This document shows positions 3,372 through 62,805 of a DNA stretch of 64,000 bases, one piece after another. A model generated the notes under the pieces. The model worked only from the letters and a program-made list of their open reading frames with translations. It ran no database searches and was not told the DNA's origin. The position numbers were made by a program, and so were the translations under genes. The first letter of the stretch is position 1; each line of letters begins with the position of its first letter. The stretch is from Curtobacterium sp. MCBD17_013 (GTDB taxonomy: Bacteria; Actinomycetota; Actinomycetes; Actinomycetales; Microbacteriaceae): positions 1 through 64,000 of the forward strand of contig NZ_QKTU01000012.1 in assembly GCF_003234565.1 (NCBI RefSeq), in the 5' to 3' direction.

Positions 3372-3527
3372 TCAGTCCTCGGACACGAGGAAGTCCGCGT
3401 ACGTCGGCTCGGTCTGGTCCGGGGCGAGGAGCGACGGGTCGTTGACGCGCTGCTCGACGTAGGCCGCGATGACCTCGGGCGGGGTGAGGACGTGGGACAT
3501 CCAGGAGGGGACGTCGGTCTTCTTCAT
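3372..3527 (-). CDS. Small hypothetical protein (51 aa)
   Basis: A 51-aa acidic protein starting MKKTDVPSWMSHVLTP and ending LVSED. No domain is recognised. The ATG at 3527 has an excellent GGGAGG ribosome site about 8 nt upstream, which decides this start over the longer reading frame from 3557. The reading frame is short but its composition (many D, E, P, low Arg) is unlike the Arg-rich shadow frames around it. It converges with the DMT exporter gene and its function is unknown. Confidence 0.6.
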   Translation of the reverse strand: MKKTDVPSWMSHVLTPPEVIAAYVEQRVNDPSLLAPDQTEPTYADFLVSED

Positions 3528-3704
3528 CTGCCCTCCCGTGGTCGATGCGGCCGGCACTGGTCCGTCCGTCCAATCCTTCGCGCGCTGAAATGTTCAACGA
3601 CGTGCGATTCGCTGAACGATCCTCTGTATGGGCAGGGCTGTCAATGCGGTCGCGTCAGAATGTCCGCTTGACGCAATCCGTGCGTCCGCGGCGTCGTTGC
3701 ATGG

Positions 3705-4031
3705 TCACCATCGGTCGTCCGCCACCCGGCGCGTCCGGCGGTCGTCCTCGCGGAGGGTGCGGTGCTTGACGGCGGATCGCCAGACCCAGGCCTCGGCCGG
3801 ATGACCGAACTGCGCCCACTCCACGAGGACGGCGTCGACGGTCCAGCTGCGGGCGAACGCCTTGACCCGGACGTGGAACGACGGGAACTGGATCCACGCC
3901 CACACCGGGATCGGCGTGACGGCGTGGCAGGGATCGCCGCCCCGGGCGTCCTCCGACAGCGAGAACGCGTCGGGGCGCGGCGACTCGGGGTGCTCCGGTG
4001 GTGACCACCGGTCCTCACGTCGCCGTCCCAT
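3705..4031 (-). CDS. SOS-boxed small hypothetical protein (108 aa)
   Basis: A 108-aa protein of unknown function. The N-terminal ~35 residues are polar and Pro-rich. The middle is a compact Trp/Phe-rich segment (PIPVWAWIQFPSFHVRVKAF, then a WTVDAVLVEWAQFG stretch and AWVWRSAVKHR), and the tail is basic. It has no signal peptide or membrane segment. A perfect LexA box (4039-4056) lies 7 nt upstream of the ATG, so induction by DNA damage is expected. The residue pattern resembles a surface that binds a partner protein or nucleic acid, but that is a guess. I chose this frame over the overlapping 117-aa frame (3655-4008) because the composition is protein-like and the LexA box abuts its start. 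Confidence 0.7.
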   Translation of the reverse strand: MGRRREDRWSPPEHPESPRPDAFSLSEDARGGDPCHAVTPIPVWAWIQFPSFHVRVKAFARSWTVDAVLVEWAQFGHPAEAWVWRSAVKHRTLREDDRRTRRVADDRW

Positions 4032-4038
4032 GCCCCTA

Positions 4039-4056
4039 TTCGAACGTGTGTTCGAA
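4039..4056 (-). promoter_or_regulatory. LexA (SOS) box
   Basis: TTCGAACGTGTGTTCGAA matches the actinobacterial SOS box TCGAAC-N4-GTTCGA perfectly. It lies 7 nt upstream of the minus-strand gene starting at 4031, so bound LexA would block the start region directly. The same core occurs at 56481 and 56893. Confidence 0.85.
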
Positions 4057-4120
4057 CCCGGCGTCAAGTCGAGCGGCGCGTCCCGGCTCGGCTGCGCGTC
4101 CGGTACGCCCTCGGCCGACC

Positions 4121-4474
4121 CTACGTGGCGTCGTAGTCCAGGTCGACGAGGAAACTGAGGTCCTGCACGTCGGTCATCTCGGCGGGCCACTCCGGCCGGC
4201 TCGGTTGCAGGGACATCGTCCCCCGCTCGAGGCGCTCGATGACCTCCTGGTCGAGCGGTTCGTCCGGGCTCTCGAGGACCGGTGTCGAGAAGATCTGGCT
4301 CGCGGGCCCGATGAGCAGGTGGGCGTACGCCCTGCTGCCGCCGTCCGTGACGACCGGGATCTGGACGACGTCGGCGACGCCCGCCACGGCGAGTGCCCGG
4401 GCGTACCGGAGGAGGGCCTTGCACGTGCTGTCGCCGGTCATGACGTACCCCCCGGCGTAGTGGATGCGTCGCAT
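4121..4474 (-). CDS. Conserved small hypothetical protein (117 aa)
   Basis: A 117-aa cytoplasmic protein that begins MRRIHYAGGYVMTGDSTCKA and continues with an alpha/beta pattern (VADVVQIPVVTDGGSRAYAHLLIGPAS). It has an acidic C terminus. From memory, proteins of this look (a Y-x-G-x-x-x-x-TG start, then a beta-rich PAS-like stretch) are widespread in Microbacteriaceae as uncharacterised small proteins; no function is known to me. The start at 4474 is chosen because the N-terminal MRRIHYAGG motif begins there. It is divergent from the DUF7882-type gene at 4570 across a 95-nt gap. Confidence 0.75.
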   Translation of the reverse strand: MRRIHYAGGYVMTGDSTCKALLRYARALAVAGVADVVQIPVVTDGGSRAYAHLLIGPASQIFSTPVLESPDEPLDQEVIERLERGTMSLQPSRPEWPAEMTDVQDLSFLVDLDYDAT

Positions 4475-4569
4475 GATGCCAGCGTGGTCGTTCCGGTCTG
4501 GGTACGCTGACAGGACAGGCGTTGGGCTCCCTGGTGGCAATCCCAGGAGCCGGATCGGAGGCTGGTCCC

Positions 4570-4881
4570 ATGGGCAGGATGATCTACAACAGCTCGTACA
4601 CCGTGGACTTCGAGGACCGCCTGCTCGCGCACCTGCAGATCGTGATCGCGACGAAGCTGCGCCGCGGCGAGTCGTTCATGTTCTCCTGGAAGGACGACCG
4701 CGACGTCGGGAACGGTCGGACCGCGATCTGGCTCGACCGGACCGTGCCCCTCGTCATCCGCTACTCGGGCAGTCGCCCGCCGACCATCAACCGCGAGTGG
4801 GTCGAGGCGTTGGCCCAGGCAGCCGGGTCACCCGGCGGACTGCGCATCGTCCCCGAGCCCTCGGAAGGGACCCCGGCATGA
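4570..4881 (+). CDS. DUF7882-type small protein
   Basis: A 103-aa protein beginning MGRMIYNSSYTVDFEDRLLA and containing VIATKLRRGESFMFSW, IWLDRTVPLVIRYSG and LRIVPEP. This matches the pattern of a Microbacteriaceae family (DUF7882) that databases have often mislabelled as ATP-dependent DNA ligase. No ligase motif (KxDG) is present, and that label should not be applied. The ATG at 4570 has GGAGG about 9 nt upstream. A TACGCT -10-like box at 4503-4508 may be its promoter. It overlaps the next gene by ATGA, so the two products are probably made together. Function is unknown. Confidence 0.82.
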   Translation: MGRMIYNSSYTVDFEDRLLAHLQIVIATKLRRGESFMFSWKDDRDVGNGRTAIWLDRTVPLVIRYSGSRPPTINREWVEALAQAAGSPGGLRIVPEPSEGTPA

Positions 4882-56480: not shown

Positions 56481-56496
56481 TCGAACATGTGTTCGA
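56481..56496 (+). promoter_or_regulatory. LexA (SOS) box
   Basis: TCGAACATGTGTTCGA fits TCGAAC-N4-GTTCGA perfectly. It is 22 nt upstream of the small gene at 56519 and shares its core with the boxes at 4039 and 56893. Confidence 0.9.
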
Positions 56497-56518
56497 TGAT
56501 CGGGAGGCGGTGGTCGCG

Positions 56519-56821
56519 GTGCCGGTGCGCGAGGCGCGAGTGGTGCGGGTGGGCACGACGGCGGCTGGCGTGCCCCGAGATCTCCTGTGGGACGGTGTCC
56601 GCTACCACGTGACCGACCGGCCGACCCGGTGGCGGGGCCGCCCGGACGAGTGGGACTTCGGACCGGGCGGCGGGGATGACGGTGCCCGCGATGCCCGGAA
56701 CGACGGGCTTCCCGCGCTGTGGCGGTTCCAGGCCACGCCGCTCGACGCCGACGCGCCGAGCGTCGTCGTCGACGTCATCGGGACCGGTGGGGGCTGGGTG
56801 CTCCTCGGCGTCGTCCGGTAG
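56519..56821 (+). CDS. SOS-boxed small protein, possibly DUF6504-like
   Basis: A 100-aa protein: PVREARVVRVGTTAAGVPRD, then LLWDGVRYHVTDRPTRWRGR, a Trp in DEWDFGPGG, and ALWRFQATP and GTGGGWVLLGVV toward the end. Its look (basic start, L-W-x-G-x-x-Y-x-V, Trp-rich) resembles, from memory, DUF6504 proteins that accompany dnaE2/imuB in actinobacteria. The assignment is tentative. A GTG at 56519 is preferred, 11 nt after GGGAGG; GTG codons at 56510 and 56525 are alternatives. A perfect LexA box lies just upstream, so it is expected to be damage-inducible with the mutagenesis cassette. Confidence 0.75.
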   Translation: MPVREARVVRVGTTAAGVPRDLLWDGVRYHVTDRPTRWRGRPDEWDFGPGGGDDGARDARNDGLPALWRFQATPLDADAPSVVVDVIGTGGGWVLLGVVR

Positions 56822-56883: not shown

Positions 56884-56912
56884 TTGACATGATCGAACAC
56901 ATGTTCGAACAT
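56884..56912 (+). promoter_or_regulatory. SOS promoter of imuA'-imuB-dnaE2 with LexA box
   Basis: A perfect LexA box TCGAACACATGTTCGA is at 56893-56908. TTGACA (56884-56889) is a consensus -35. With a 17-bp spacer the -10 is GAACAT (56907-56912), and +1 falls near the ATG at 56919. LexA would therefore sit across the spacer and block RNA polymerase, and the transcript would be leaderless. Confidence 0.85.
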
Positions 56913-56918
56913 GGGGCG

Positions 56919-57758
56919 ATGCAGACGGCGGCGGCTCTCCTCGGAGAGCGGGGCGATCGGACACCGGCACCCGGTGCCCATGGTGCACGCGCGGTCCGAC
57001 AACCGGACCACGTGGCCGAGGCGCGGGCGGCGCTGGAGCGCATCACGAGCCTCCGCTCCCGGATCGCGGACATGGAGGACACGCGGATCGACACCGGTGC
57101 GCTCCCGACGTCGCCTGCGCTCGCGCCGCTCCTACCGGGTGGCGCACTCCGGTCGGGGGCGGCCTACAGCGTGCACGAGTCGGTGCTGCTGGCGATGACC
57201 ATGCTCCAGGCGGCGTCGGCGTCCGGCGCATGGTGCGCCGTGGTCGGTGTGCCGTCCTTCGGGGTCGAGGCCGCCGCGGCCTCCGGGATCGACCTGGAGC
57301 GGCTCGTGCTCGTGCCCGACCCGGGCGACCAGTGGCTGACGGTCACCGCGGCGCTGGCCGACGTCGCGACGATCGTGCTGACCCGACCGCTCGGGCGCGT
57401 CACCCCGGGCGACGTCGCTCGCCTCGGGGCACGGCTCCGGCAGCGGGGTGCCGCCCTCGTCGCGCTCGGCAGCTGGCCCGGTGCCGAGGCCTCGCTCCGG
57501 GTCACCGACTCCTCGTGGCAGGGCATCGGACGCGGGTTCGGGTACCTGTCGGAACGGCGGGCAACGGTCGTGGCGACCACTCGGGCCGGCGCTGGACGCC
57601 CACGCAGCGCCGAACTCCTGCTCCCCGCAGCGGACGGGACGGTCCAGCCGTCGGTGTCGGCGACCGCGAGCGGTGATCCGACCGGCACCCGGTCCCCGGT
57701 GGTCGTCACGACGGCCGGCGGAGACCGGGGAGCGCGTCCCGTGGCGGTGGCGTCGTGA
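56919..57758 (+). CDS. imuA': ImuA-like mutasome protein (ImuA')
   Basis: A 279-aa RecA-related accessory protein for DnaE2 mutagenesis. It resembles RecA/SulA-fold proteins in AAYSVHESVLLAMTMLQAAS and CAVVGVPSFGVEAAAASGID; the P-loop is degenerate. The block VPDPGDQWLTVTAALADVAT is typical of actinobacterial ImuA'. In mycobacteria ImuA' is needed for damage-induced mutagenesis with ImuB and DnaE2. The ATG at 56919 is chosen because the predicted transcript starts there; ATG codons at 56871, 56889 and 56901 overlap the promoter and LexA box. It overlaps imuB by GTGA. Confidence 0.88.
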   Translation: MQTAAALLGERGDRTPAPGAHGARAVRQPDHVAEARAALERITSLRSRIADMEDTRIDTGALPTSPALAPLLPGGALRSGAAYSVHESVLLAMTMLQAASASGAWCAVVGVPSFGVEAAAASGIDLERLVLVPDPGDQWLTVTAALADVATIVLTRPLGRVTPGDVARLGARLRQRGAALVALGSWPGAEASLRVTDSSWQGIGRGFGYLSERRATVVATTRAGAGRPRSAELLLPAADGTVQPSVSATASGDPTGTRSPVVVTTAGGDRGARPVAVAS

Positions 57759-59368
57759 CCGGTGGAACGGTGGCCCTCGGGGCGGGGAGTCCGCCCGTCG
57801 AGGCCCCGCCCACCCGCACGATGGTCCTGTGGTGCCCGGACTGGCCCGTCCTCGCCGCTGCGGTGGCGTCCGGGGCGGACCCCGAGCGGCCGATCGCCCT
57901 CGTGGCCAAGGGGCTCGTGTACGCCTGTTCCGCGGCCGCTCGTCACGAGGGCGTCCTCCGCGGGCTGCGCATCCGCGAGGCCCAGGCCCGGTGCACGACG
58001 CTCGTGGTCCAGCAGTACGACGAGGCCCTCGACCACCGGGCGTTCGAGCCCGTCATCCGTGCGGTCGAGGGTGCCGTGCCCGGCGTGCACGTCCTGCGTC
58101 CGGGGACGCTCGCGATCCGCTCCCGGGGGCCGGCCCGCTACTACGGCGGGGAGCACCCGGCAGCGCTGACGCTCGCGGGCATCGCGGCCGACCACGGGGC
58201 GCCGGGCGTGCGGGTCGGCATCGCGGACACCCCGTTCGCGGCGGAGCAGGCGGCACGTGCCCGGACACGCGATGTCGAGCGGGTCCGCATCGTCCCCGAG
58301 GGTGCGTCGGCGGACTTCCTGGCACCGCTGCCGTTGTCGGTCCTCGGTCGCGACGACCTCGCGATGGTGCTCGGGCGGCTCGGGATCACGACGCTCGGTG
58401 CGTTCGCGCAGCTCACGGACGAGCAGGTGCGGGACCGGTTCGGGCCGGAGGGTGCGTTCCTGCACCGGCTCGCCGGAGGCCGTGACCCACGTGCGGTCAC
58501 CGCCCGCGACGTCCCACCGGACCTGACCGTCGACGCCGCGTTCGAACCCCCGCTCGACCGTGCCGACCAGGTGGCGTTCGCGTTCCGTCGGTCCGCCGAC
58601 ACCTTCGCCGAGCGGCTCCGTGCGGCGGAGCTCGTGGCCACGACGATCCGCATCGAGATCACCGACGACCGTGGCGTCTGCCTCGACCGCACCTGGGCCC
58701 ATCCGCGGTGGTTCGACCCCGCCGACGTCGTCGACCGCGTGCGGTGGCAGCTGCAGGGCGGTACGGACCCCACCGGGCTCGAGGCCCCCGTCGCCCACGT
58801 CCGGCTCGAGGCCGAGGCGGTCGACGCGGTCACGAACCACGAGCGTGGACTCTGGGGTTCCGGGCCGGACGAGCGGGTGCACCACGGCCTCGCCCGGATC
58901 CAGGGCATGGTCGGACACGACGGGGTCGTCACGGCACGCATCGCCGGCGGTCGGACCCTGGCGGAGCGCACGCTGTTCGTGCCGTGGGGGGACACCCCGG
59001 CAGGGGGCGAGCGCGCGGTCGCGGTCGCCCGTGCACGCCCGTGGCCCGGTCGGTTGCCCGGGCCCGCACCCGCGACGGTCCTCGACCGTCCTCGGCCCGT
59101 GGACGTCGTCGCCGCCGACGGCACCCCGGTCGACGTCGACGGGCGCAGCATCCTGACCGGTGAGCCGGACCGGTTCCGCGCCGAGGGGGACCGGGGCGGA
59201 CGCTTCAGTGCGGTGGTCGCATGGGCGGGGCCATGGCCGCTCGTCGTGCGCTGGTGGGAGGCCGGGGGTCGCCGTCTGCACCGGATGCAGCTCGTCGACG
59301 CCGAGGGGCGCGCATGGACCGTCGTCCTGGCGGATGGCCGGTGGTGGGCCGAGGCGGTGGCGACCTGA
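57755..59368 (+). CDS. imuB: ImuB, catalytically degenerate Y-family polymerase
   Basis: A 537-aa Y-family polymerase homologue, the scaffold of the mutasome. The start MVLWCPDWPVLAA replaces the catalytic DMDAFFA motif of active Y-family enzymes, as known for ImuB. The little-finger half follows (VTNHERGLWGSGPDERVHHG). The C-terminal ~100 residues carry the RWWEAGGRRLHRMQLVD stretch. I could not find a clear QLxLF clamp-binding motif by eye. The GTG at 57755 overlaps the imuA' stop (GTGA), and the dnaE2 ATG shares a base with its stop (TGATG). Confidence 0.93.
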   Translation: MTGGTVALGAGSPPVEAPPTRTMVLWCPDWPVLAAAVASGADPERPIALVAKGLVYACSAAARHEGVLRGLRIREAQARCTTLVVQQYDEALDHRAFEPVIRAVEGAVPGVHVLRPGTLAIRSRGPARYYGGEHPAALTLAGIAADHGAPGVRVGIADTPFAAEQAARARTRDVERVRIVPEGASADFLAPLPLSVLGRDDLAMVLGRLGITTLGAFAQLTDEQVRDRFGPEGAFLHRLAGGRDPRAVTARDVPPDLTVDAAFEPPLDRADQVAFAFRRSADTFAERLRAAELVATTIRIEITDDRGVCLDRTWAHPRWFDPADVVDRVRWQLQGGTDPTGLEAPVAHVRLEAEAVDAVTNHERGLWGSGPDERVHHGLARIQGMVGHDGVVTARIAGGRTLAERTLFVPWGDTPAGGERAVAVARARPWPGRLPGPAPATVLDRPRPVDVVAADGTPVDVDGRSILTGEPDRFRAEGDRGGRFSAVVAWAGPWPLVVRWWEAGGRRLHRMQLVDAEGRAWTVVLADGRWWAEAVAT

Positions 59369-62300
59369 TGGGGTACAACAACCCACCGATCCCGTGGTCG
59401 GAGTTCGAGCGTGCGCTGTCGGACAAGCGCAGTCCCGGGGCAGCGCCTCCCGGTGACGGCGGTGACAGCCCGGCGTGGTCGCGCAAACGCGTCCCGTACA
59501 CACCGGCGCCGGCCTCGATCGTGGACGACGGCCTGACGGTGCCGTACGCGGAGCTGCACGCGCACTCGACCTTCAGCTTCCTCGACGGTGCGAGCCCACC
59601 GGAGCACCTGTTCGAGGAAGCCGCACGCCTGCACCTGCACGGCCTCGCACTCACCGACCACGACGGCCTCTACGGGGCGGCGCGGATGGCCGAGGTCGCC
59701 GAGACCCACTCCGACATCCGGACGGTGTACGGCGCGGAACTCTCCCTCGGCCTGTCCGAACCGCAGAACGGCGTCGCCGACCCCGAGGGCACACATCTGC
59801 TCGTCCTCGCACGCGGGCAAGCGGGCTACCACCGACTGGCCGCCGCCATGACGAGCGCACACCTGTCGCCCGGTGCGGAGAAGGGCCGGCCCCGGTACGA
59901 CCTCGACGACCTCGCAGAGCGGGCCGGTGACGCCTGGCACGTGCTCACGGGGTGCCGCAAGGGGACCGTCCGCGCCGCCCTCGAGACCGGGGGTGAGGAC
60001 GCCGCCGAGCGGGCACTGCGGGACCTGCTCGACCGGTTCGGGCGCGAGCACGTCACCGTCGAGCTCATCGACCAGGGCGACCCGATGGACACGGCCCGCA
60101 ACGACCTCCTGGCCGGACTGGCCGGGCGGTTCCGGTTGCCCGTCGTGGCCACCGGGAACGTGCACTACGCCACCCCGGACCGGTTCCGGGTCGCCACGGC
60201 GCTCGCGGCTGTCCGGGCACGCCGCAGCCTCGACGAACTCGACGGCTGGCTCCCCGCCGCCGACACGGCGCACCTGCGGTCCGGGGCCGAGATGAGCCGT
60301 CGGTTCGCCCGGTACCCCGGCGCCGTGGCGCGGAGTGTGGAGCTCGCCGACGACCTGTCGTTCCGGTTGCGGAGTGCCGCGCCGGGCCTCCCGGACCTCG
60401 ACGTGCCCGACGGGCACACGCCCATGTCGTGGCTCCGCGACCTCGTCTGGCAGGGCGCCCGGCGGTTCTACCCGGGCTCGGCCGACGGGGTCGACCCGGT
60501 CAAGCGTGACCGCATCGAGCGTGAGCTGCACGTGATACAGGAGAAGGACTTCCCCGGGTACTTCTTGATCGTGCGGGATCTCGTGCAGTACGCGCGCAGT
60601 CGGGGGATCCTCTGCCAGGGCCGTGGGTCCGCCGCGAACTCGGCGGTCTGCTACCTGCTCGAGATCACGGCGGTCGACTCGATCCGGTACGGGCTGCCGT
60701 TCGAACGGTTCCTCTCGAGCATGCGCGACGAAGAGCCCGACATCGACGTCGACTTCGACTCCGACCGCCGCGAAGAAGTCATCCAGTACGTCTACGCCAA
60801 GTACGGCCGGTTCAACGCGGCGCAGGTCGCGAACGTGATCACCTACCGTCCGAAGGCCGCGGTGCGCGACATGGCGAAGGCGCTCGGGCACAGCCCGGGA
60901 CAGCAGGACGCCTGGTCCAAGCAGGTGGAACGGTGGGGGTCGGTCACCGAGAGCACGGAGCACGACATCCCGGACGAGGTCGTCGGACTCGCGCGCGAGG
61001 TCCTCGGGTTCCCCCGGCACCTCGGCATCCACTCGGGCGGCATGGTGCTCACCGACCGACCCGTCGGCGAGGTCGTCCCCATCGAGCACGCCCGCATGGA
61101 CGGCCGGACGGTCCTGCAGTGGGACAAGGACGACTGCGCCTTCATGGGGCTCGTCAAGTTCGACATGCTCGGCCTCGGCATGCTCGCGGCGCTGCAGTAC
61201 GCGTTCGACCTCGCGGCCGACCACTGCGGTGAGCGCTGGGACATGCACGACATGCCGAAAGAGGAGCAGGGCGTCTACGACCAGCTGTGCCGGGCCGACA
61301 CCGTCGGGGTGTTCCAGGTCGAGTCCCGGGCGCAGATGGGCACCCTGCCCCGGTTGTTACCGCGGCGGTTCTACGACCTCGTGATCGAGGTCGCGCTCGT
61401 GCGTCCCGGTCCGATCCAGGGCGGCGCCGTCCACCCCTACATCCGGCGGCGGACCGGGGAGGAGCCGATCACCTACCTGCATCCGGCACTCGAACCGGTG
61501 CTCGAGCGCACCCTCGGGGTGCCGCTGTTCCAGGAGCAGCTGATGCAGATGGCGATGACCGTGGGCGGGTGCTCGGGCGAGGACGCCGACCAGCTCCGCC
61601 GCGCCATGGGGTCGAAGCGGGGGCTGGTCCGGATCGAGGCGCTCCGCGACAAGCTCTACCGCGGCATGGCCTCGAACGGCATCGAGGGCGAGGACGCCGA
61701 CGCCATCTACGCCAAGATCCAGGCGTTCGCGAACTTCGGCTTCGCGGAGAGCCACTCGATCAGCTTCGCGCTCATCGTCTACGCGAGTGCATGGATGCGG
61801 TTGCACTACCCGGGCGCGTTCCTGGCGGCACTGCTCCGGGCGCAGCCGATGGGGTTCTACTCGCCGCAGTCGCTCGTCGCGGACGCCCGACGCCACGGAG
61901 TGCAGGTGCGGCGCCCGGACATCCTGCGGTCGGGGGTCGACGCCACGCTCGAGGTCCTCGATCCCGACGCACCGCTCGGCGACGACGGACTGCCGCCACG
62001 GACCGGTTCGGACACCTGCCTGGCCCAGGAACAGGAGCCCGTCCGGCCGTTCGACCGGAGCACACCGTTCGACACGGACGACCACCGACGCGACGGTGCC
62101 TTCGCGGTCCGTCTCGGCCTGGTCGAGGTCACGTCCCTCGGCCGACGCAGTGCGGAGCGGATCGTCGCGGAGCGCGAGGCGAACGGCCCGTTCCGGGACA
62201 TGTCCGACCTGGCTCGGCGGGTGGGGCTGACCACGGCGCAGCTCGAGGCGCTCGCTGCGGCGGACGCGTTCGCGTCGTTCGACATCGACCGTCGCAGCGG

Positions 62301-62805
62301 CATGTGGTCGGCGGCGCAGGCTGCGGCGGAACGCCCGGACCAGCTCCCCGACACGCAGGTGGTCGTGCAGCCGCCGCTGTTCGGGCAGCTCACCGACGGT
62401 GACGCCTTGATCGCGGACATCTGGTCGACGGGGCTGTCACCGGACGACCACCCGATCCGGCACGTGCGGCGGGATCTCGCCCGGCGGCGCGTGCTCAGCG
62501 TCGCGGAGCTCATGACGGCCGAGACCGGGCGGCGGATCGAGGTCGGCGGGGTCGTGACGCATCGACAGCGTCCCGCCACGGCGTCCGGGATCACCTTCAT
62601 GAACGTCGAGGACGAGACCGGCCTCGTGAACGTGATCTGCAGCGTCGGCGTGTGGACACGGTTCCGTCGGGTCGCCCGCGAGGCACCGGCGCTCGTCGTG
62701 CGGGGGATCCTCGAGCGGTCACCCGACGGTGTGGTGAACGTCGTCGCGGACCACATGGAACGGTTGCCGCTCGCGGTCCGGACGCGCTCCCGCGACTTCC
62801 ACTGA
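59368..62805 (+). CDS. dnaE2: Error-prone DNA polymerase DnaE2
   Basis: An 1145-aa C-family polymerase that carries out translesion synthesis during SOS. The PHP domain starts YAELHAHSTFSFLDGASPPE. The catalytic Asp motif is EPDIDVDFDSDRREEVIQYV, and GRGSAANSAVCYLLEITAVD is another polymerase-core mark. The C-terminal OB domain includes GITFMNVEDETGLVNVI. It lacks the tau-binding tail of DnaE1, as expected for DnaE2. It is the last gene of the cassette. The N-terminal ~50 residues are polar and poorly conserved. Confidence 0.97.
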   Translation: MGYNNPPIPWSEFERALSDKRSPGAAPPGDGGDSPAWSRKRVPYTPAPASIVDDGLTVPYAELHAHSTFSFLDGASPPEHLFEEAARLHLHGLALTDHDGLYGAARMAEVAETHSDIRTVYGAELSLGLSEPQNGVADPEGTHLLVLARGQAGYHRLAAAMTSAHLSPGAEKGRPRYDLDDLAERAGDAWHVLTGCRKGTVRAALETGGEDAAERALRDLLDRFGREHVTVELIDQGDPMDTARNDLLAGLAGRFRLPVVATGNVHYATPDRFRVATALAAVRARRSLDELDGWLPAADTAHLRSGAEMSRRFARYPGAVARSVELADDLSFRLRSAAPGLPDLDVPDGHTPMSWLRDLVWQGARRFYPGSADGVDPVKRDRIERELHVIQEKDFPGYFLIVRDLVQYARSRGILCQGRGSAANSAVCYLLEITAVDSIRYGLPFERFLSSMRDEEPDIDVDFDSDRREEVIQYVYAKYGRFNAAQVANVITYRPKAAVRDMAKALGHSPGQQDAWSKQVERWGSVTESTEHDIPDEVVGLAREVLGFPRHLGIHSGGMVLTDRPVGEVVPIEHARMDGRTVLQWDKDDCAFMGLVKFDMLGLGMLAALQYAFDLAADHCGERWDMHDMPKEEQGVYDQLCRADTVGVFQVESRAQMGTLPRLLPRRFYDLVIEVALVRPGPIQGGAVHPYIRRRTGEEPITYLHPALEPVLERTLGVPLFQEQLMQMAMTVGGCSGEDADQLRRAMGSKRGLVRIEALRDKLYRGMASNGIEGEDADAIYAKIQAFANFGFAESHSISFALIVYASAWMRLHYPGAFLAALLRAQPMGFYSPQSLVADARRHGVQVRRPDILRSGVDATLEVLDPDAPLGDDGLPPRTGSDTCLAQEQEPVRPFDRSTPFDTDDHRRDGAFAVRLGLVEVTSLGRRSAERIVAEREANGPFRDMSDLARRVGLTTAQLEALAAADAFASFDIDRRSGMWSAAQAAAERPDQLPDTQVVVQPPLFGQLTDGDALIADIWSTGLSPDDHPIRHVRRDLARRRVLSVAELMTAETGRRIEVGGVVTHRQRPATASGITFMNVEDETGLVNVICSVGVWTRFRRVAREAPALVVRGILERSPDGVVNVVADHMERLPLAVRTRSRDFH

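Follow-up and report, generated by a model that had tools for sequence, protein, structure and literature searches.

Our analysis revealed that the 108-aa gene at 3705–4031 of the window (the whole 64,000-nt stretch of DNA analysed here) belongs to an unnamed, unclassified and widely conserved protein family, a large part of which carries putative SOS boxes. Control of this gene by LexA and the SOS response is strongly supported, as well as sequence allows. We propose that the gene may be repressed by LexA and encode an accessory subunit for mutasomes of the ImuB-C/DnaE2 type, acting in the manner of YolD/YqjX or UmuD′, a mutasome role that we infer and to which we give slightly less than an even chance. 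The gene and the elements preceding it are the following:

3705–4031, minus strand: gene under study, 108 aa (ATG at 4031–4029), with a predicted SH3/Tudor-like barrel at about residues 35–90, a low-confidence basic N-terminal arm and a C-terminal helix
4038–4043, minus strand: putative −10 element TCGAAT, which overlaps the box and lies 6 nt from the start codon (read from the sequence)
4040–4055, no strand assigned: perfect LexA-type box TCGAACGTGTGTTCGA, TCGAAC-N4-GTTCGA (pattern search of the window and assembly)
4062–4067, minus strand: putative −35 element TTGACG, followed by an 18-nt spacer occupied by the box (read from the sequence)

The 108-aa ORF is a real gene under purifying selection at the protein level, because its dN/dS is ~0.2–0.3 (pS, 0.38–0.50; pN, 0.10–0.16) in the comparison with six other Curtobacterium genomes. 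A seventh Curtobacterium genome, from the same species (G238, locus L117), contains an identical coding sequence of 108 codons, yet its box spacer reads AGAC instead of ACAC on the coding strand. The first-pass annotation had described the gene as an orphan, which is wrong: homologue searches placed it in a sizeable family, and the family profile detected a close orthologue (E < 1e-26) in 60 of 66 Curtobacterium genomes and at least some family member in all 66. The enrichment in Trp and Phe noticed earlier in the middle third of the protein was borne out (W44, W46, W63, W72, F49, F52 and F59).

An EamA-type gene adjoins the 108-aa gene in 30 of the 30 Curtobacterium loci (some of which are duplicates), and a 61-aa ORF without a family match (3372–3557, minus strand; 51 aa if started from an inner ATG) is kept between the two in 29 of them. 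In the window, the gene for a DUF7882 protein (4522–4881, plus strand) is divergent from an unassigned 139-aa ORF (4121–4540, minus strand), and no counterpart of either turned up in the other family loci searched. The presence of clpP1 at a distance of ~3.4 kb had raised the idea of a ClpP adaptor, which was dropped because clpP is present in the flank of only 3 (L210, L226 and L238) of the 27 named Curtobacterium-type loci. The EamA, clpP, tig, recA and radical-SAM genes were identified by eye.

The perfect SOS box reported by the first-pass annotation before this uncharacterized gene was confirmed at 4040–4055; it is indeed close to the ATG, at a distance of 8 nt rather than 7 nt. Five perfect TCGAAC-N4-GTTCGA sites are present in the assembly (3,385,998 bases), and the reversed pattern yielded none. 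With one mismatch allowed, 65 sites were found versus 3 for the reversed pattern, which indicates that composition matters and that this control underestimates chance; the window contains 22 sites at ≤2 mismatches, versus 4.08 in dinucleotide shuffles. The other four perfect sites are located ~0.2 kb upstream of recA (C5:37600), at a radical-SAM gene and, in two cases, in the imuA′-imuB-dnaE2 region. The box of the radical-SAM gene, which we take to be Rv2578c-like, lies 8 nt before its ATG (G000:C23:109070–109085, locus L062), in the same geometry as that of the 108-aa gene. In S. venezuelae, too, LexA targets a radical-SAM gene (PMC9380542).

Loss of the box in orthologues had been named beforehand as an observation that would speak against SOS control, an argument that fails because a perfect box is kept in 34 of the 34 distinct Curtobacterium chromosomal orthologues examined (one of them, L238, is an unclassified Microbacteriaceae record). 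These boxes all lie within −150 to +15 of the start, where, judging from the remainder of these loci, 0.000 perfect and 0.6 two-mismatch sites would be expected. Each of the 30 best-scoring Curtobacterium loci has a perfect box, with a gap of 8 nt in 29 and an alternative ATG directly at the box in the remaining one. The DNA upstream of the box has diverged (mean majority base of 0.547 from 80 to 30 nt before the box); only the flanks of this alignment are informative, because the sequences were selected for having the box. In addition, TTGAC[GT] is present ahead of TCGAAT in all but one of the 41 distinct Curtobacterium promoters (40 of 41); the spacer is 17 nt (31 promoters), 18 nt (9) or 16 nt (1) long and contains most of the box. 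The start codon follows the −10 element after 6 nt in 39 of the 41 and after 7 nt in the other two; the pattern used required [AT]T after the box, and the −10 element in this count is thus partly imposed by the search. A transcription start ~7 nt after the −10 element would fall on the start codon, and a leaderless transcript is therefore the natural reading; the mRNA of the 108-aa gene is probably leaderless.

That the box is a chance palindrome and the gene is not under SOS control is hardly credible. We rejected this explanation on the basis of the five perfect sites in the assembly and the conservation of the box in all 34 orthologues, and both the promoter geometry and the diverged flanks also argue against it. 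The earlier claim that the protein is an unrecognized SOS effector can be maintained as far as SOS control is concerned, as judged from the Curtobacterium orthologues and from 61 of 98 other members (≤2 mismatches) outside a subgroup that tends to lack the box. An RNA-seq analysis of Curtobacterium aetherium L6-1 under UV-C has been published (PMC12029717; BioProject PRJNA734343, genome CP076544.1).

The family spans chromosomes, plasmids and viral contigs of Micrococcales. Members were detected in 55 of 199 Microbacteriaceae genomes with the profile (43 of 199 with a single-sequence query), in 49 of 396 order-level genomes and, phylum-wide, in 2 of 296 genomes, both of which are Microbacteriaceae. 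Because the whole-genome searches scored part of the candidates (12 of ~70 per genome at the order level and 24 of ~100 for DUF6504-like genes), these presence counts are lower bounds, and the co-occurrence tests given below are rough. Hosts named among the best 80 of 102 relatives include Mycetocola, Microbacterium, Herbiconiux, Leifsonia, Agromyces, Naasia, Cryobacterium, Salinibacterium, Cellulomonas and Georgenia. The family consensus is MG-x-N-[RK]-R-Y ... P-x-S-L-[ST]-x-x-E ... P-x-PV-x-AWVRF ... A-x-AWT-x-RAV-x-VEW ... AWVWASAV. In Cryobacterium (L185, L186, L188 and L201), the family domain is fused to an additional C-terminal domain of ~100 aa, for which the two fusions scanned gave no credible Pfam match.

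A 38-row alignment of the family gave no convincing match to Pfam, NCBIfam or PHROGs, all matches being weak (E 0.024 or worse) and confined to single members, and a sequence search of the PDB returned 0 matches. A PADLOC PDC-S05 match in one of the 38 members (E 0.0045) was treated as chance. Phage records contained no Herbiconiux-type or Arthrobacter-type member; there were three weak phage matches (E 0.5–1), representing a distant relative that ends in AWLPKAAV and is without a box. Title and abstract searches returned no publication that names the family, none on LexA and the SOS response in Microbacteriaceae and none on DUF6504, and the parts of PMC10421592 that were covered describe no further mutasome subunits.

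Putative SOS boxes are also frequent outside the Curtobacterium orthologues. Among 125 other distinct members, the box near the start is perfect in 17, has ≤1 mismatch in 52 and ≤2 mismatches in 71, whereas 0.04, 0.36 and 2.5, respectively, are expected. The loci in these counts are the best-scoring ones and thus non-random, duplicates were dropped and members with <150 nt of upstream sequence were left out; the 125 include a Curtobacterium paralogue pair. Thirteen plasmid members were read and counted separately, and 10 of them are boxed at ≤2 mismatches. No box with ≤2 mismatches is present between −150 and +15 in 54 of the 125, an absence that a position behind a boxed DUF6504-like gene explains for only some of them. 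In a subgroup with the signature P-L/V-T-x-x-P, the box was found in 10 of 27 members (0.5 expected), and this lower frequency suggests that SOS control has been lost or was never gained in part of the family.

Two queries retrieved 22 and 29 records with plasmid copies, and seven IMG/VR viral contigs contain a member, five of which are boxed at ≤2 mismatches (best-scoring loci). The 13 plasmid neighbourhoods contain genes for ParA, SSB and ArdC-like proteins as well as restriction genes. As for the plasmid paralogues in Curtobacterium, L077, L242 and L246 have no box, L075 has a two-mismatch box and L243 has a perfect one. Paralogue pairs occur in this genus in tandem (L035) and in divergent orientation (L075), with one copy of each pair much diverged. 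The plasmid and viral records, together with the divergent pair on plasmid pC1c and the tandem pair on contig G105:C11, would fit a mobile-element gene, that is, a factor for the fitness of plasmids or viruses or for anti-defence that follows the timing of the host SOS response and was fixed once on the Curtobacterium chromosome. However, the synteny with the EamA neighbour on the Curtobacterium chromosomes and the purifying selection indicate a host function, and we regard this explanation as quite unlikely. Because plasmids can carry parts of SOS polymerases too, it is also compatible with the proposed mutasome role.

AlphaFold2 predicted four strands in the window protein (residues 35–48, 53–63, 67–74 and 77–84) at pLDDT 88–95 and a C-terminal helix at pLDDT 68–71, with a mean pLDDT of 58–59 for residues 1–20. 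The same barrel was predicted in a Mycetocola member at pLDDT 92–97, with residues 1–21 below 50. The top fold matches were Tudor domains (TDRD3 and SGF29), closely followed by PWWP, integrase C-terminal and SH3 domains; the best Z was 6.3 over ~50 residues, with unrelated myosin and ribosomal rows among the matches, and no Foldseek match in the PDB passed E 0.001 with either model. The nearest viral model was a protein of Arthrobacter phage Seahorse (E 0.004, TM 0.58), whose gene has no box. These models fit an SH3/Tudor-like barrel with a disordered arm as the predicted fold of the family and indicate no specific relation.

Two other explanations draw on this fold. ZapC, an FtsZ partner, was the top Foldseek match, although non-significant (E 0.29), and the protein is small, SOS-boxed and lineage-specific, as would be expected of a cell-division checkpoint protein of the SOS response, soluble and functionally analogous to SulA, YneA, SidA or DivS. 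Such a role is very unlikely: ZapC dropped to ranks 7 and 20 with the second model, the linkage to DUF6504-like genes described below would be left unexplained, and the known actinobacterial and alphaproteobacterial division inhibitors are mostly membrane proteins, whereas no long hydrophobic segment was recognized by eye in the 108-aa protein. Alternatively, the protein may be an SOS-induced nucleic-acid- or nucleoprotein-binding factor that acts apart from the mutasome, with the Tudor-like barrel, its conserved Trp residues and the basic tails serving at stalled forks to bind DNA, RNA or a protein involved in repair. The basic termini, the invariant W82 and W84 and the matches to Tudor, PWWP and retroviral integrase C-terminal domains (Z ~5–6) are consistent with this, as is the location of plasmid members near ssb, ParA and ArdC-like ssDNA-binding genes and of one near a DNA ligase gene. 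However, the fold scores are weak, and binding by itself does not explain the recurrent linkage to DUF6504-like genes; we consider this role unlikely, though by no means far-fetched.

The argument for a mutasome accessory subunit starts from the other end of the window. The boxes that had been reported ~53 kb away at imuA′-imuB-dnaE2 were found as described, with perfect sites at 56481 and 56893, 52–53 kb distant. The region contains the following features:

56481–56496, no strand assigned: perfect box ahead of the DUF6504-like gene (pattern search)
56510–56821, plus strand: DUF6504-like gene, related to the C-terminal domain of ImuB (in-house HMM 6e-20 and profile A5 E 7.7e-21, both of which include its own sequence)
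56893–56908, no strand assigned: perfect box at the imuA′ start (pattern search)
56889–57758, plus strand: putative imuA′, with a start anywhere within 56889–56919 and no Pfam match
57755–59368, plus strand: imuB, IMS domain (Pfam IMS 2.9e-9)
59221–62805, plus strand: putative dnaE2 ORF, with the true start probably after imuB; similar to the C-family polymerases of L287–L289 and L293

We take the ORFs at 56889–57758 and 59221–62805 to be imuA′ and dnaE2, respectively, from their positions. The DUF6504-like gene, which sits between an aldose-epimerase-like gene (identified by eye) and imuA′, has no Pfam match on its own and gave tblastn values of 8e-6 to 1e-3 against four DUF6504 loci. A DUF6504 domain at the end of the ImuB of the window was not confirmed, as neither Pfam nor the in-house HMM matched there.

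An in-house DUF6504-like HMM yielded 17 domain matches in the 256 family loci (1.75 Mb), corresponding to 16 ORFs at 12 distinct loci. None of the 17 is more than 351 nt away from a family member, and the arrangement is tandem (in either order) at nine loci and divergent around a box at three. Among the 199 Microbacteriaceae genomes, six pairs of a family member and a DUF6504-like gene, 9–310 nt apart, were found in five genomes (5 of the 55 that bear a member) versus 0.03 expected (Poisson P 8e-13, which assumes independent positions and the mean genome size). Three genome-wide pairs add to the twelve loci, giving at least 15 loci, a minority of all members; most family members have no DUF6504-like neighbour. 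In Schumannella, a divergent pair shares a perfect box. In another genome (G041) with a tandem pair, a perfect box precedes the DUF6504-like gene and accounts for the seemingly distant box there. On the Paenarthrobacter plasmid pADNL1, a DNA-ligase gene precedes the member by 210 nt, and the member overlaps a small gene whose DUF6504 match is weak (E 0.007). The presence of the family is not correlated with that of DUF6504-like genes in the 199 genomes (36 of 55 versus 76 of 144, P 0.11, a rough value), and the family has no profile similarity to DUF6504 (0.4%).

The DUF6504-like genes are in turn connected with both SOS control and mutasome polymerases. Of 48 distinct genes, 38 are boxed at ≤2 mismatches (1.4 expected), and 7 of 87 matches in ImuB-bearing genomes have imuB at a distance of ≤5 kb (0.25 expected). 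Four Arthrobacter-like genomes in which no ImuB was detected have a DUF6504-like gene immediately upstream of one for a C-family polymerase; the polymerases beside DUF6504-like genes (L287–L289 and L293), two of which were assigned by Pfam, are 26–28% identical to the window DnaE2, and from the gene arrangement those of the four genomes are probably the published DnaE2B. DUF6504 also matches the C-terminus (residues 504–579) of Rhizobium sullae ImuB, with 24.9 bits against a cut-off of 24.2. Stand-alone ImuB-C has been described as a mutasome subunit and predicted DnaE2 partner, which in Arthrobacter alpinus is linked only to DnaE2 (PMC6511836; PMC12926913). Some reduced Microbacteriaceae genomes of 1.1–1.4 Mb, for example G010, G081, G092, G154 and G157, contain a DUF6504-like gene with a perfect box, and no ImuB was detected in them.

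The first-pass annotation had considered the protein a possible accessory to the mutasome on the ground of the shared box, and the adjacency to DUF6504-like genes now lends this idea indirect genomic support. A direct link was not found: similarity to imuA′, imuB or dnaE2 was absent from the 256 family loci (flanks mostly of 1.5 to 10 kb), in a search that could miss Y-family polymerases other than ImuB, and the 13 plasmid neighbourhoods contain no annotated polymerase. In 54 genomes, imuB and the members are always >10 kb apart; the smallest distance is 11.3 kb, and that in the window genome is 53.7 kb. These distances are based on an ImuB list for the genomes with a member or a DUF6504-like match. 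ImuB was detected in 54 of the 55 member-bearing Microbacteriaceae genomes versus 86 of the 144 without a member, a correlation that is confounded because reduced genomes are without both (of the 20 ImuB-less genomes listed, 12 are <2.3 Mb). The sole ImuB-less genome with a member in this sample (G193) carries boxless copies. In the order-level sample, 35 of the 49 member-bearing genomes have a detected ImuB and 14 do not. These ImuB-less genomes with members, and the lack of mutasome genes in the family loci, favour the binding factor that acts apart from the mutasome. On a Rathayibacter festucae plasmid, a weak, below-cut-off match to the archaeo-eukaryotic primase PF22548 (E 8e-4) was seen just upstream of the member (L080:500–2443).

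Taken together, the chain from the family to DUF6504/ImuB-C and from there to DnaE2/ImuAB, all with LexA-type boxes, and the small predicted barrel with its floppy arm lead us to the reading as a mutasome accessory subunit. In an undamaged cell, LexA bound at 4040–4055 would fill the promoter spacer and cover the −10 element, thereby blocking RNA polymerase. RecA-driven cleavage of LexA would free the promoter, and the induced gene would give a presumably leaderless mRNA for a small soluble protein in which a disordered basic arm and a basic tail flank an SH3/Tudor-like barrel, the fold and arm being model predictions. The barrel may then make physical contact with an ImuB-C-like (DUF6504) subunit or a partner polymerase, with the arm positioning the polymerase; in this genome, the candidate partners in such mutagenesis would be the DUF6504-like protein (56510–56821) and ImuA′-ImuB-DnaE2.

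More tentatively, Micrococcales may possess an unrecognized class of mutasome small subunits of their own, LexA-controlled SH3/Tudor barrels with an N-terminal arm and no sequence relation to UmuD′, YolD or ImuB-C, which would pair with ImuB-C, tune DnaE2- or PolY-type mutagenesis and be carried by plasmids and viruses to alter host mutability. SOS mutasomes drive damage-induced mutation in Actinobacteria, and the list of their parts is still open. If the protein is such a subunit, the family would be a widely spread, mobile mutagenesis factor that has so far been overlooked because its members are short, unclassified and encoded away from the polymerases. If it is not, it would still represent an unclassified, widely conserved SOS gene family.

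Among known systems, YolD/YqjX (PF08863), the UmuD analogues of Firmicutes, are the closest in several respects. The R-x-N-R-W-x-P-P-E-H start of the Curtobacterium members presumably resembles the YolD arm. Both are small SOS proteins with a predicted SH3-type barrel and an unstructured N-terminal arm (PMC6511836; PMC12926913), and YolD/YqjX and UmuD′ have SH3-barrel cores in common (PMC6511836). LexA control of YolD/YqjX is retained even when they are encoded apart from the polymerase, as in S. aureus, where yolD is separate from uvrX and LexA sites are present at both (PMC6511836). In the present family, the barrel is predicted with high confidence (its best Z, 6.3, being to Tudor) and the N-terminal arm is predicted to be disordered. 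Unlike YolD/YqjX, the family is found almost only in Micrococcales-type genomes and has no mutasome gene in the 256 loci; no Y-family polymerase gene is annotated beside it in the 13 plasmid neighbourhoods. Membership in YolD was rejected, as none of the 38 members gave a Pfam YolD match at E up to 1.

Stand-alone ImuB-C/DUF6504 proteins (PF20114) are likewise small and LexA-boxed and are encoded by the adjacent gene in at least 15 loci, but they are neighbours of the family rather than members of it and have no sequence or profile relation to it; with neither a Pfam match nor profile similarity, assignment of the family to DUF6504 was rejected. The ImuA′-ImuB-DnaE2 mutasome has the same LexA-type box in the same genome and is linked to the family through DUF6504-like genes, whereas the family gene is encoded elsewhere, 53.7 kb away in the window. 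A 2026 survey distinguishes 11 polymerase module types, none of which includes this family in the parts covered (PMC12926913). The C-terminal Tudor domain (DUF3553) of DinB1/DinX provides a precedent for a Tudor/SH3-like module tied to an actinobacterial translesion polymerase (PMC12926913; PMC6511836), in contrast to which the present protein is free-standing and has no Pfam match. Finally, a LexA-regulated operon on an S. venezuelae plasmid, described as ‘hypothetical + DNA polymerase IV’, is similar by description, comprising a plasmid-borne small SOS gene with a box from 14 nt before the start codon (PMC9380542).
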